A program made the position numbers and the translations under genes. A model generated the notes under the pieces. The model ran no database searches and had not been told where the DNA came from. It saw only the letters and a program-made list of their open reading frames with translations. From Bacilli bacterium (GTDB taxonomy: Bacteria; Bacillota_I; Bacilli_A; RF39; UBA660), in NCBI GenBank assembly GCA_017435485.1, contig JAFSEY010000004.1:62001-126000 (forward strand): 64,000 nt of DNA, in the 5' to 3' direction. Below, piece after piece: positions 20,212-54,686 of the stretch. The first letter of the stretch is position 1; each line of letters starts with the position of its first letter.

Positions 20212-20859
20212 ATGGAAAAGAAATCAGGTAATACTATTATGTTAACTGTAATTGCTATCGCTACTTTATTAGTTGCTGTAGTTGGTGCAACATTTGCATA
20301 TTTCTCAGCTAATACTACTGGTAACGCTGGTAAAACAACAGTAGAAGTAAATACTGCTGCTGCAGCTGATACATTCTTAACTGAAGGAAACAGTGTTGTT
20401 ACTTTAGATGTTACAGCTGATAAAATGCAACAAGCTGATGGAAATAATGATTATAGTGTAAAAATCACTAATGATGTAGAATCTACAATCGATGTTAAAT
20501 TAACTGCAGGTTCTAGTAAAGCAACTTGTACTTATGATTTAACTTATACTCCAAGCGCTGCATTTAATGCATCTGCTAAAGCTGCTGAAGCTTCATTAAA
20601 GGAATTTACTTTAGTTGGTACAAGTACTGATGGTAATGAATTTGAAGAAAAAGATTTAGCTGGAGTTACTGATGCTATCGTTTTAGGAAGTTATTCAATT
20701 TCTGATGAATATGCTGATGCTTTAGTTGAATCAGTTGACACTTGGACATTTACTGCTAATTTCTATAATTTAGCTGTAGATCAAAATGATAATATCAATA
20801 AAACATTTGGTGGTGTTGTATCTGTAACTAATGTTAAATGTACAAATGCTGCTAATTAA
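20212..20859 (+). CDS. SipW-dependent-type surface protein (TasA/camelysin-like)
   Basis: A 215-residue exported protein. Residues 8-30 form a hydrophobic signal segment ending in GATFAYFSA, the motif typical of TasA/camelysin-type proteins cut by SipW-class signal peptidases. The mature part is beta-rich and low in cysteine (CTY and KCTN, which could pair), as expected for a fibre or matrix subunit. The ribosome site AGGAGGTGA is the strongest in the window, and codon use is smoother than in its neighbours, both signs of high expression (inference). It is first of three related genes and is closed by its own terminator. A SipW-type peptidase lies at 52.8 kb. Confidence 0.82.
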   Translation: MEKKSGNTIMLTVIAIATLLVAVVGATFAYFSANTTGNAGKTTVEVNTAAAADTFLTEGNSVVTLDVTADKMQQADGNNDYSVKITNDVESTIDVKLTAGSSKATCTYDLTYTPSAAFNASAKAAEASLKEFTLVGTSTDGNEFEEKDLAGVTDAIVLGSYSISDEYADALVESVDTWTFTANFYNLAVDQNDNINKTFGGVVSVTNVKCTNAAN

Positions 20860-20936: not shown

Positions 20937-20982
20937 TTTGCTATAATTATTATATTTTGATATTATATATATGGTGGATAAT

Positions 20983-21570
20983 ATGAATAATAGTAACGTA
21001 AGAAAATATGTAATCACAGCTATTGTTACTCTACTAATATTAGTATGTGTAATTGGGGTAACTTATGCATTTTTTAATCCGACAGTTAATTCAAATGGGA
21101 TAACAACAGTTAATATTGAGTCTTCTGAACAGGCAACTATATCTTTTACCGGTGGGAATGATATTACCGTTAATGCATATCAACCTGGTGTATCTGGAGA
21201 GCTTTATTTCAGTGTTGGGCTTAAAAGTGATGGTGGAGATATATCTGCTGCTTATGATATTATATGGAATATTACAGAGAATACTTTTATTAAAGATGTG
21301 AGCAATGCTGATGATAAAGAGCTATTGTATTCATTATATATAAGTACTGATAATACTAATTGGGAACCATTAATAACTGATGCTGAAGCAGCTACCTTAA
21401 TTGGTGAAGTGAAATTAGCTACTAACGAATTAATCTTAGCACCTGAGAATAGTGAGAAAGTTAATTATTATAAATTTGTAATTACATATCCTAGTTTAGA
21501 TAAAGATCAAAGTTATAATATGGAAGCTAGTTTAAATAGCTATGTTGAAGTAAAACAAAGTGAAGAGTAA
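20983..21570 (+). CDS. Second SipW-dependent-type exported protein
   Basis: About 195 residues. The start is ATG 20983 after GGTGG (20973-20977); the upstream in-frame ATG at 20971 overlaps the ribosome site. The signal segment (about residues 8-29) ends in GVTYAFFNP, the same client motif as the preceding gene. The mature part is beta-rich, without cysteine (last residues VEVKQSEE), and resembles the TasA/camelysin fold in outline: an early strand repeat NGITTVNIESSE, then YFSVGLKSDGGDI, and a terminal strand. The next client gene starts 16 bases downstream, so the two are probably one operon. Confidence 0.78.
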   Translation: MNNSNVRKYVITAIVTLLILVCVIGVTYAFFNPTVNSNGITTVNIESSEQATISFTGGNDITVNAYQPGVSGELYFSVGLKSDGGDISAAYDIIWNITENTFIKDVSNADDKELLYSLYISTDNTNWEPLITDAEAATLIGEVKLATNELILAPENSEKVNYYKFVITYPSLDKDQSYNMEASLNSYVEVKQSEE

Positions 21571-21585
21571 AAGGAGTAGGCAATT

Positions 21586-22908
21586 ATGAATGAAGAAATC
21601 AAAAGTGAAATTCAAAATGATTATGAAGAACAATATATGATATTAGAAGAGGAAGAGAGAAAGGAAGAAAGACGAAAAACAATCATAATTATAATTTTAT
21701 TAATATTAATTATTTTAGTGTCTTTAATTGGAGCATCTTTTTCTTATTATAGGTATCATAAAAATGAAGAACATAGGAACTGTAAGTTAGATTGTCATTT
21801 TGACAAAGATGATAAATGTGATAAAAATTGTGATATAAATAAAGACGGAAAAGCTGAACTTAATATTGATAAAAATAATGATGGAATTTGTGATGTAAAT
21901 TGTGACTCTGATAAAGATGGTAAACCAGATTATAATGTAGATTATTTTTATAACAGAGATGAAATGTTTAATATTGACACAAATAAAGATAATAAACCAG
22001 ATTTTAATTTTGTAAATCAAGATACAAATAGTGATGGTTTGTGTGATATCAATTGTGATACAAACGATGATGGCTGGCCAGATACTAATATTGATTTAGA
22101 TGGTGATGGAAAAGCTGACTTAAATTTAGATACAAACAATGATAAAAAGCCAGATTTCAATATTGATACAGATAAAGATGGTTATGCTGATGTTAATGTT
22201 GATTTAGATCGTAATGGAGTTTGTGATGTAAATTGTGATACAAACAAGGATAATAAACCAGATAATAATATAGACTATTGTCATGATTATAAAGCTCATT
22301 TTAATTTAGATACTAATGGTGATGGAAAAGCTGATGCTAATCTTATTACTAATAGAGAAAATGTTGATACAGACAAGAATGGTTGGCCAAATATTAATAT
22401 CGATTTAAATGGCGATAAAGTTTGTGATGTAAATTGTGATACTAATAATGATGGAAAAGCTGACAAAAATATTGCTACTTCTTGTTTGGATAAAACAGGT
22501 AATGATGTAATATTGTCTATTGATAGCAAGAAAAATCAAAAGATTTTCTTACATAGTATTAAAAGTATTAATGCAAAAGATATTATTCCAGGATGGAGCG
22601 ATACTCAAATATTTGCAATTGAAAATAAGTCTGATAATAGTGTCATTGTTGATCTATTATGGAAAAATGTAAAAAATGAATTTACAGAAGTAAATAATTT
22701 AACTTATAAATTGGATAATGGAACTACTGTGTTAAAAACTGATGCAAAAGTTCCTTATCAAGATGATATTTTACTTGAAAATGTTTTAATTCCTGCAAAT
22801 CATACATATTATTATACGGTTACATATGAATTTAAAGAAACTGGAGTAAATCAAGATATTGATCAAGATAAGAATTTTACAGCAAGTATTGTTGTTAGTA
22901 TAAAATAG
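21586..22908 (+). CDS. Calcium-repeat stalk protein with TasA/camelysin-like tip
   Basis: A 440-residue protein. Residues 1-28 are acidic and basic (cytoplasmic); a membrane segment (about 29-52) ends in GASFSYYRY, close to the client motif of its two neighbours. Residues 62-305 are tandem repeats of about 13 residues on the pattern D-x-N-x-D-G-x-x-D-x-N-x-D, as in thrombospondin type 3, dockerin or EF-hand-like calcium loops, with CDVNCD-type cysteine pairs at intervals. The last 130 residues are a beta-rich domain (IFAIENKSDNSVIVDLLW, then YYYTVTYEF) resembling camelysin/TasA. I infer a calcium-stiffened stalk presenting a fibre-like domain. It follows the previous gene by 15 bases. Confidence 0.8.
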   Translation: MNEEIKSEIQNDYEEQYMILEEEERKEERRKTIIIIILLILIILVSLIGASFSYYRYHKNEEHRNCKLDCHFDKDDKCDKNCDINKDGKAELNIDKNNDGICDVNCDSDKDGKPDYNVDYFYNRDEMFNIDTNKDNKPDFNFVNQDTNSDGLCDINCDTNDDGWPDTNIDLDGDGKADLNLDTNNDKKPDFNIDTDKDGYADVNVDLDRNGVCDVNCDTNKDNKPDNNIDYCHDYKAHFNLDTNGDGKADANLITNRENVDTDKNGWPNINIDLNGDKVCDVNCDTNNDGKADKNIATSCLDKTGNDVILSIDSKKNQKIFLHSIKSINAKDIIPGWSDTQIFAIENKSDNSVIVDLLWKNVKNEFTEVNNLTYKLDNGTTVLKTDAKVPYQDDILLENVLIPANHTYYYTVTYEFKETGVNQDIDQDKNFTASIVVSIK

Positions 22909-22917
22909 TGGGTTTTT

Positions 22918-23388
22918 ATGGCAAAGAAAAAAGATAGTATAGAAGAATTTGTTGATAACGTAAAAGAGACAGCTGAAGACATTTTAAATACACCAGATGA
23001 AACTGATAAGTTTAAGAAGAAAGATATTAAAACAAATAAGGGAATGGCAATGCTTGCTTATATCTTTGTGCCAATTCCATTAATTTTTGAAAGAGAAAGT
23101 GAGTTTGTTAAGTTTCACATAAATCAAGGATTAAATTTATTTATAGCTTTTATTGCTTATTCAGTTATTTATGGTCTTCTTTCAAAGATTACCTTAGTTG
23201 AGCAAATGTGTACGATTAATGGGTTAGAATTTCATTGTGGTAGATATGAAGTCCCATGGTTTGTTGAGTTGCCATTTTTACTTATAGGTTTATGCATAAT
23301 AATAGCTATTATATATGGTATAGTCAATGTTATAAATGGTAAGGCTAAACAAATTCCGATAATCGGGAAATTTAATTTAATAAAATAA
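22918..23388 (+). CDS. DUF4870/Tic20-like small membrane protein
   Basis: A 156-residue membrane protein with a charged N-terminal tail of about 40 residues and three to four hydrophobic segments. The block MLAYIFVPIPLIFERES followed by FVKFHINQGLNLFI matches the pattern of the DUF4870/Tic20-like family (an aromatic, F-x-x-FH-x-x-Q-x-L turn between helices). Function in bacteria is not established. It begins 10 bases after the calcium-stalk gene and ends at a terminator, so it is probably the last gene of that operon and may help assemble or anchor it (inference). Confidence 0.75.
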   Translation: MAKKKDSIEEFVDNVKETAEDILNTPDETDKFKKKDIKTNKGMAMLAYIFVPIPLIFERESEFVKFHINQGLNLFIAFIAYSVIYGLLSKITLVEQMCTINGLEFHCGRYEVPWFVELPFLLIGLCIIIAIIYGIVNVINGKAKQIPIIGKFNLIK

Positions 23389-53466: not shown

Positions 53467-53497
53467 TTAAAATAGTCATCAATTTATGGGGGTTATT

Positions 53498-53986
53498 ATG
53501 AATAAAATTGATAAGATGATTGTAAATACTATTTTACAAACAATTTTTGTTATTTTAATATGTATATTTAGTTTTATTATGTTTGATAATTTAAAATTAG
53601 AAGATGTTCAAGAAGAGTTGGCTTATACTAATATGGAAATTAGTAAGAATGAAGATGCTTATATAGCAATAGATGAATTTTCTAATGAAGAACAAATTAC
53701 AATAACTATAATTAATGAGAGTAATTCTTATGAAAATTATAATGTTTTATTAACGAGTGAGATAAATTTAGAACAAATGGATGAACATATTTATATAAAA
53801 ATTGATGAAGCTAGTTATACTTTAGAACAACTATTATTAAAAGATAATTATTATCAGATTATGAGCGGAAAACTAAAAGCTTCTAATAAGCAAGTTAAAA
53901 TATATTTGGCGATAGATAATGAGTATATAGATTTATTTAATGATAATGTTAGTTTTAGCTTTGTAAATGAAAATATTGTAATTTAA
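53498..53986 (+). CDS. Membrane-anchored protein of the sipW locus
   Basis: About 162 residues. ATG 53498 follows GGGGG. One N-terminal membrane helix (about 7-30, ILQTIFVILICIFSFIMF) lacks the client motif of its neighbour, so it probably stays anchored. The outer part is beta-rich and acidic with no cysteine (EEQITITIINESN; NVSFSFVNENIVI at the end) and could be a TasA-like or anchoring domain. It lies between sipW and a client gene, the position of an accessory such as TapA in Bacillus, but there is no sequence similarity I can see. An extended -10 TGTTAAAAT is at 53465-53473. Confidence 0.65.
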   Translation: MNKIDKMIVNTILQTIFVILICIFSFIMFDNLKLEDVQEELAYTNMEISKNEDAYIAIDEFSNEEQITITIINESNSYENYNVLLTSEINLEQMDEHIYIKIDEASYTLEQLLLKDNYYQIMSGKLKASNKQVKIYLAIDNEYIDLFNDNVSFSFVNENIVI

Positions 53987-54041
53987 TTGTTTGTTCTTGA
54001 GTTTTAACTTTGTTTTTGCTATTATTAAAATGGTGAATGAT

Positions 54042-54686
54042 ATGAACTATAAATCAATCATAAAAAAACAAAGTTTTGTTATAGCAATTTGTGTAATTTG
54101 TTTAGCTATATTACTGACTGGTACTAGTTATGCTTTATTTTTTCAAGTAAATACAAATACAGAAAATCAAGTGGTGGAAACAGGAACTTTATCAGTAACT
54201 TATGGCTCTCAGAGTCAAATGATTACCGAAACTAATTTAGTTCCCATGTTTGATACCGATGCTTTACAATCTTCAACGGTTTCATCAACAATATTTATTG
54301 AGAATAATGGTACTTTACCTGCCACTTATGTTTTGAAGATAGGGGAAGATCGGGAAACTTTTAGTAAAAGAGCTGATTTTTTAGAAACAGACGAACTTGT
54401 GAATTTAGATTATGTTAAAGTTGCTGCATATATTGATGGAAAAGTTATAGTTAATCCGACAACAATTTCTAGTCTTGTTGTATCGGATGATGATGCTTCT
54501 ATGTATGTTTTAAAAACAGGCGCTTTAGATGTTTCAAGTACAGGGAATACTACTGAAACATTAGTTGTTAAGGTTTGGCTTGATAGTTCGATCCCTACAA
54601 CAGAAATTGGCAAGTTTTTATATTTAAAATTAGATGTAACGAGTTTAGTTGATGAAGCCAATACACCAGAAGGAAATGCTCAATAA
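54042..54686 (+). CDS. SipW-dependent-type exported protein (TasA/camelysin-like)
   Basis: About 214 residues. The start is ATG 54042 after GGTGA; upstream in-frame ATGs overlap the site. The signal segment (about 12-32) ends in GTSYALFFQ, the client motif. The mature part is beta-rich with a repeat-like series (ETGTLSVTYGS; TIFIENNGTLPATYVLKIG; TLVVKVWLDSS), no cysteine, as in camelysin/TasA-type fibre subunits. It is the client most closely linked to sipW. It ends at a terminator just before rlmB. Confidence 0.8.
   Translation: MNYKSIIKKQSFVIAICVICLAILLTGTSYALFFQVNTNTENQVVETGTLSVTYGSQSQMITETNLVPMFDTDALQSSTVSSTIFIENNGTLPATYVLKIGEDRETFSKRADFLETDELVNLDYVKVAAYIDGKVIVNPTTISSLVVSDDDASMYVLKTGALDVSSTGNTTETLVVKVWLDSSIPTTEIGKFLYLKLDVTSLVDEANTPEGNAQ

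Follow-up and report, generated by a model that had tools for sequence, protein, structure and literature searches.

The window, that is, the whole stretch of 64,000 nucleotides analysed here, belongs to a Bacilli genome of 1.1 Mb and carries a gene for a protein of 440 residues, hereafter the stalk protein, in which a cytoplasmic tail, a transmembrane (TM) helix, a stalk of about 235 residues made of 12-residue repeats and a beta-rich C-terminal domain, the tip, follow one another in that order. An AGGAG ribosome site precedes the open reading frame, and the camelysin-like gene upstream ends 15 bp before its start. The features concerned are the following, the slash in a signal motif marking the cleavage position:

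20212..20859, + strand: small secreted protein with SipW-type signal GATFA/YF (motif read directly), candidate matrix subunit
20971..21570, + strand: camelysin/TasA-like protein, 15 bp upstream of the stalk gene, with signal motif GVTYA/FF and a tip-profile match at 6e-5
21586..22908, + strand: stalk protein gene, 440 aa, ATG start, relatives L001-L018
21586..21678, + strand: cytoplasmic tail with EEQYxxLEEE (alignment A3), a motif kept in much of the window's clade
21679..21756, + strand: TM segment (hydropathy and motif), with GASFS/YY at its end as a degenerate SipW-type cleavage motif
21781..22485, + strand: stalk of 12-residue DxNxDGx[P/C]DxN[I/C] repeats with six CxxxC pairs, probable calcium loops (motif count, consensus and model)
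21934..22119, + strand: conserved stalk module NxDYxxNRxxxFNIDTNxDxKPDFNxxNQDTNxDGxCDINCDTNDDGWPDxNIDLDGDGKAD (invariant columns of alignments A1 and A3, family-wide module search)
22507..22905, + strand: tip, TasA/camelysin-like beta-sandwich domain (model, fold search, BLASTP and profile comparison)
22588..22590, + strand: Pro335, counterpart of TasA Pro62 in the proline box, invariant in 17 of 17 tips and in the protein set A4
22918..23388, + strand: DUF4870-like membrane protein (Pfam match just under cut-off), next gene after a 9 bp gap, probable operon, same order in L001
52714..53439, + strand: SipW-type (ER-type) signal peptidase of the window's genome (TIGR02228 at 98.9 bits, over cut-off, and a SipW profile match)
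53991..54686, + strand: further small secreted protein with SipW-type signal motif GTSYA/LF, near the SipW gene

The stalk-plus-tip layout put forward by the original prediction is real and conserved: relatives keep it and it is under purifying selection, with a dN/dS against the same-genus relative L001 of 0.077 overall, 0.08 for the stalk and 0.075 for the tip. A scan of genome contigs returned 18 relatives, all in MAGs of uncultured Bacilli, Erysipelotrichaceae or Tenericutes, and about 40 relatives, all from uncultured Bacilli, retain the layout. Across the GTDB family, the tip domain was found in 102 of 243 genomes and the repeat module in 21 of 117 (at 1e-6). In the tree, the stalk tips form two well-supported clades separate from the subunits, the window's clade with 24 rows (support 99/98; a frame fragment and L097, which has no stalk, are among them) and a second one with 16 rows (support 99/99), to which L005, L007, L008, L012-L018 and others belong. 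With the whole stalk protein as query, Pfam gave no significant match, and sequence searches of the PDB with the protein, the tip profile and the full profile gave no useful one. At the N-terminus, a charged tail of about 30 residues is followed by a hydrophobic segment (residues 32-54) which lies, in the structure model, within a long predicted helix (residues 3-60). The hydrophobic part of the predicted membrane anchor is thus present, but the segment ends as the SipW-type motif GASFS/YY, so that cleavage of the window's stalk protein is possible.

The stalk agrees with the earlier description of about 240 residues of D-x-N-x-D-G repeats with paired cysteines. Between about residue 66 and residue 300, D-x-[DNS]-x-[DN]-G-like 12-mers were matched 15 times, with spacings of 12, 15, 19 and 24, compared with a mean of 2.2 and a maximum of 8 when the stalk residues are shuffled (2000 shuffles); self-identity in the autocorrelation peaks at lags 12, 24 and 36, and the 14 cysteines of the protein include six pairs exactly 4 apart. 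It is not a plain array, since the plain repeats are joined by the conserved module (residues 117-178) common to relatives. Collected from 40 stalk proteins, 981 repeats give the consensus D1-x-[DN]3-x-D5-G6-x-[PC]8-D9-x-N11-[CIL]12, in which Asp1 reaches 96%, Asp5 97%, Asp9 91% and Asn11 86%, position 3 being D or N. Cys8 and Cys12 occur together in 331 of these repeats, both are lacking in 583, Cys12 stands alone in 67, some of them probably out of register, and Cys8 alone in 0; as Cys8 is never seen without Cys12, a C8-C12 disulfide inside one repeat, in place of a Pro8-Ile12 contact, is suggested. Judging by this consensus, the repeats probably bind calcium. The predicted model of the stalk, made without ions, is regular, with beta bridges every 12 residues and a pLDDT of about 80-89 over most of it, and this regularity is what the stiffness ascribed to the stalk would rest on; used at full length in a Foldseek search, the model returned as top matches beta-sandwiches resembling the tip. 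We consider it very improbable that the repeats are an acidic, disordered spacer without ordered calcium binding: their failure to match thrombospondin type 3 or dockerin families speaks for such a spacer, but the Asp residues at positions 1, 5 and 9 in 91-97% of the repeats and the Asn at position 11, the dependence of Cys8 on Cys12 and the regular predicted model all speak against it.

The loops had originally been likened to those of thrombospondin type 3 or dockerin proteins, a kinship that the family profiles did not bear out. Thrombospondin type 3 repeats (PF02412, PF18884) share with the stalk the tandem D-x-[DN]-x-D-G-x-x-D loops and the cysteines, whereas the stalk has a strict 12-residue period, N at position 11, I or C at position 12 and the C8-C12 pair inside one repeat, and these two profiles match nothing in the window's genome at E <= 10. 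Dockerin type I (PF00404) has a similar DxNxDG calcium-loop consensus, but the stalk model contains no helices, and its loops run on as a long tandem series where a dockerin has two loop-helix units; PF00404 misses the stalk and matches two other proteins of the window's genome, where dockerin type I domains pass the Pfam cut-off at C6:112776-112946 and C13:165545-165718. The staphylococcal Sdr/Clf adhesins also place acidic repeats between the cell surface and a functional domain and gave weak NCBIfam matches, yet the stalk protein has no LPXTG and the opposite order, with its functional domain C-terminal; the SdrC/ClfA match (1e-14) is compositional, falls on the repeats and reaches 54 of the required 1700 bits. 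The repeat is a candidate for a new-looking, length-tunable calcium rod, and it is reused in other membrane proteins. The same module is indeed inserted between TM segments of a transporter of about 575 aa, presumably YfcC-like (L020, in the window's own genome at C6, about 79123-79419), where it takes the form NIDYxGSxxAxFNID..DGKADxNLxN..CxxNCDTNxDGYPDKNLDF. Such transporters also occur at L127, L136 and G020:C8:39736; three of them were read (own genome, G094 and G076), and the fourth, from the same-genus G020, is deduced from a match in a 576-aa frame.

The beta-rich terminal domain was confirmed by an AlphaFold2 model (17 aligned tips) in which residues 308-440 form nine strands, with a pLDDT of 83.6 and a pTM of 0.77. 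Searched against the PDB with Foldseek, this model finds TasA in the first and second places (5OF2, E 1.8e-4; 5OF1, E 2.0e-4), the TM-score to 5OF2 being 0.62 of the query, and viral and toxin beta-sandwiches rank behind TasA; the identity in the structural match with TasA is about 12%. In a direct Pfam scan of the tips, camelysin was matched in one relative only (E 0.053), and the window tip taken alone stayed under threshold. The connection is made through intermediates. L055, which passes the Pfam camelysin cut-off, shares 30% identity with the window tip in BLASTP (8e-14), and the tip profile aligns in hhalign with A4, a set of fifteen SipW-signal camelysin-like proteins, at 99.9% and E 6e-34. 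PF12389 matches 14 of the 15 A4 proteins, and the A4 profile in turn finds the TasA fibre 8AUR at 9e-4, with the P-G of A4 aligned to the KPG of TasA. Following this chain from the tip through L055 and A4 to PF12389 and 8AUR, the camelysin/TasA-like assignment of the original prediction is right at the superfamily level, and the profile comparison of the C-terminal domain does not lead to an unrelated family. As a separate observation, a camelysin-like domain with a SipW-type signal stands at the N-terminus of a 5628-aa frame with many tandem repeats (L086, G155:C35).

How far the tip resembles a fibre subunit can be read from the known TasA structures. In the TasA fibre, each subunit is completed by residues 28-38 of the one before it, while in the monomer the groove is filled by residues 48-61 (PMC9674648), and no part of the intersubunit interface is better conserved than the proline box around P62 (PMC10151520). 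The tip shares with TasA/camelysin of Bacillus (PF12389, NF046066) the fold, the profile kinship and the proline box, and it retains P335 together with the strand before this proline. It differs by a TM anchor, by the 235-residue stalk that precedes the domain and by the absence of a SipW-exposed N-terminal donor strand, the place of the free donor strand being taken by the stalk and a flexible-looking linker; the signal cut by SipW and the aromatic donor strand behind it, which together characterize TasA/camelysin subunits, were not found in the stalk protein.

The gene neighbourhood supports a role of the stalk protein with matrix fibres. In the window's genome, the two SipW-signal genes at 20212 and 20971 adjoin the stalk gene and the SipW gene lies 30 kb away from it. 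The product of 20212..20859 gave no match to the tip profile at 1e-4, and its signal and position suggest that it may nevertheless be camelysin-related. Among the 20 loci of the window's clade having downstream sequence, SipW directly follows the stalk gene in 13 and lies within 4 kb in 15. A gene for a TasA-like protein with a SipW-type signal is found immediately upstream of the stalk gene in 12 loci of this clade, one of which, L010, has too little sequence on its downstream side and is outside the 20; L073 presents the complete order of TasA-like gene, stalk gene and SipW. This arrangement resembles tapA-sipW-tasA, with the stalk protein in the place of TapA (YqxM, TIGR04087), to which it is also likened by the operon with SipW and TasA-like genes, seen in relatives (13/20) while the window has TasA-like neighbours only, and by the proposed role in anchoring or assembly. 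TapA, however, folds completely by itself and contributes its N-terminus as a donor, whereas the tip of the stalk protein looks like an acceptor, and the TIGR04087 profile does not match the window stalk protein. Small membrane-anchored proteins adjoin SipW in several genomes (window 53486-53986; L003:10185-10712; L006:5234-5824) and are possibly a further part of the system. With five penicillin-binding transpeptidase domains in the window's genome, the stalk probably has a cell wall to cross.

The ends of the signals separate stalk proteins from subunits. Subunit signals mostly end A/[YFW][FYW], while stalk proteins mostly have S/Y followed by a non-aromatic residue, although the window stalk protein itself carries S/YY; checked by eye on the segments, most stalk proteins have Ser or Thr at P1, where subunits have Ala, and their P2' is rarely aromatic. 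Together with the missing donor strand before the tip, these differences suggest that the stalk protein is an acceptor and not a donor, an anchor and not a subunit. If SipW did cut at GASFS/YY, the product would instead be a secreted minor fibre component or cap whose new N-terminus donates a strand like TapA. We regard this as unlikely: most of the window's clade retains the motif G-[AS]-[TS]-[FY]-[AS]-Y, four members have Ala at P1 and SipW lies next to the stalk gene, but the usual Ser at P1 and the rarity of aromatic residues at P2' are unlike the neighbouring subunits, the charged 30-residue tail with its conserved EEQYxxLEEE precedes the segment, and the residues after the site are hydrophilic in the window protein.

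We therefore favour, with a probability of roughly 55%, a reading in which the stalk protein is a membrane-held anchor or assembly protein of a TasA-type extracellular matrix system, uncleaved or poorly cleaved, which stands in the operon where Bacillus subtilis has TapA but is differently built. In this mechanism, the signal-peptide-like segment would remain in the membrane as anchor, calcium ions would occupy the D-N-D-D loops of the 12-residue repeats, and the C8-C12 disulfides would staple some of the repeats into a stiff rod of variable length that raises the tip through the wall. There the tip, a TasA-family domain with the proline box and presumably the acceptor groove and without a free N-terminal donor strand, would take the donor strand of a SipW-processed TasA-like subunit, thereby fixing one fibre end to the cell. 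Lacking that free strand, it could not serve as an inner fibre subunit. The original prediction had seen in the tip a nucleator of fibres; with no donor-strand segment in place, what the sequence favours is the narrower role of an acceptor or anchor. Against the anchor stand the 30 kb between SipW and the stalk gene in the window's genome, the Ala kept at the cleavage site in L004, L006, L010 and L100, the second stalk clade in an unrelated-looking operon and the polarity opposite to TapA that an acceptor anchor would have.

A stalked adhesin or receptor at the cell surface, with a TasA-like tip that recognizes some other ligand on the surface of a host or bacterium and is not involved in assembling fibres, seems to us distinctly improbable. 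Stalk length ranges widely in the relatives, as in adhesins, from no repeats to the 96 matches counted in L095 (1401 aa), and the same genomes carry the tip domain in many further large frames, both of which would suit an adhesin; the operon with SipW and TasA-like genes and the invariance of the proline box, an intersubunit surface in TasA, would not. Nor would the natural stalk-less version L097:5700-6380, which in 227 aa has the same tail, TM segment and tip and keeps its operon place between a TasA-like gene upstream and SipW downstream; being nested in the stalk clade, L097 has probably lost its stalk. At another locus (L010:842-3637), stalk and tip are separated by an additional domain, probably beta, of about 95 residues.

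The second stalk clade has a cytoplasmic domain of about 95 residues and a mostly fixed upstream operon of four genes in all (L005:1951-7305; equivalents in L008, L011-L018, L101, L102, L105 and L106), whose other products are a 358-aa protein, a 501-aa membrane protein and a DUF2357 protein. The 501-aa protein has a weak AAA match and a match to the PADLOC candidate PDC-M26A at 1e-38, and this operon is possibly a surface-linked defence or signalling complex. Since this operon, with its AAA-type and DUF2357 proteins, looks unrelated to that of the window's clade, the stalk-tip module has at least one other use. The cytoplasmic domain and the fixed operon with its ATPase-like membrane protein and DUF2357 protein would also suit a transmembrane sensor reading the outside with its tip and signalling through its cytoplasmic tail, but the window's clade has a short tail only and no such operon, and we give a sensor hardly any credence there.

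As to novelty, the original prediction knew of no described protein with this layout, and our literature search for TasA/camelysin proteins with calcium repeats likewise found none, so that, as far as this literature shows, the reuse of a TasA/camelysin domain as the tip of an anchored, repeat-stalked membrane protein at the operon position of TapA is undescribed. Even inside the genus Bacillus, TapA reportedly lacks conservation (PMC10151520), which leaves the anchoring of most TasA-type systems to be explained. The stalk protein, a membrane-bound TasA relative on a stalk in the operon place of TapA, conserved across uncultured gut Bacilli, is a concrete anchor candidate, and as its gene usually stands beside those of fibre proteins and SipW, it probably represents a new kind of matrix-fibre anchor, one that yields a testable prediction of donor and acceptor. 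We propose, more tentatively, that gut Bacilli of this family may anchor donor-strand fibres via an acceptor-only TasA-family domain, carried on a calcium-loaded, disulfide-stapled rod whose length is set by the number of repeats. If true, this would constitute a new anchoring mechanism with a polarity opposite to that of TapA, built on a type of repeat outside the thrombospondin type 3 and dockerin families.
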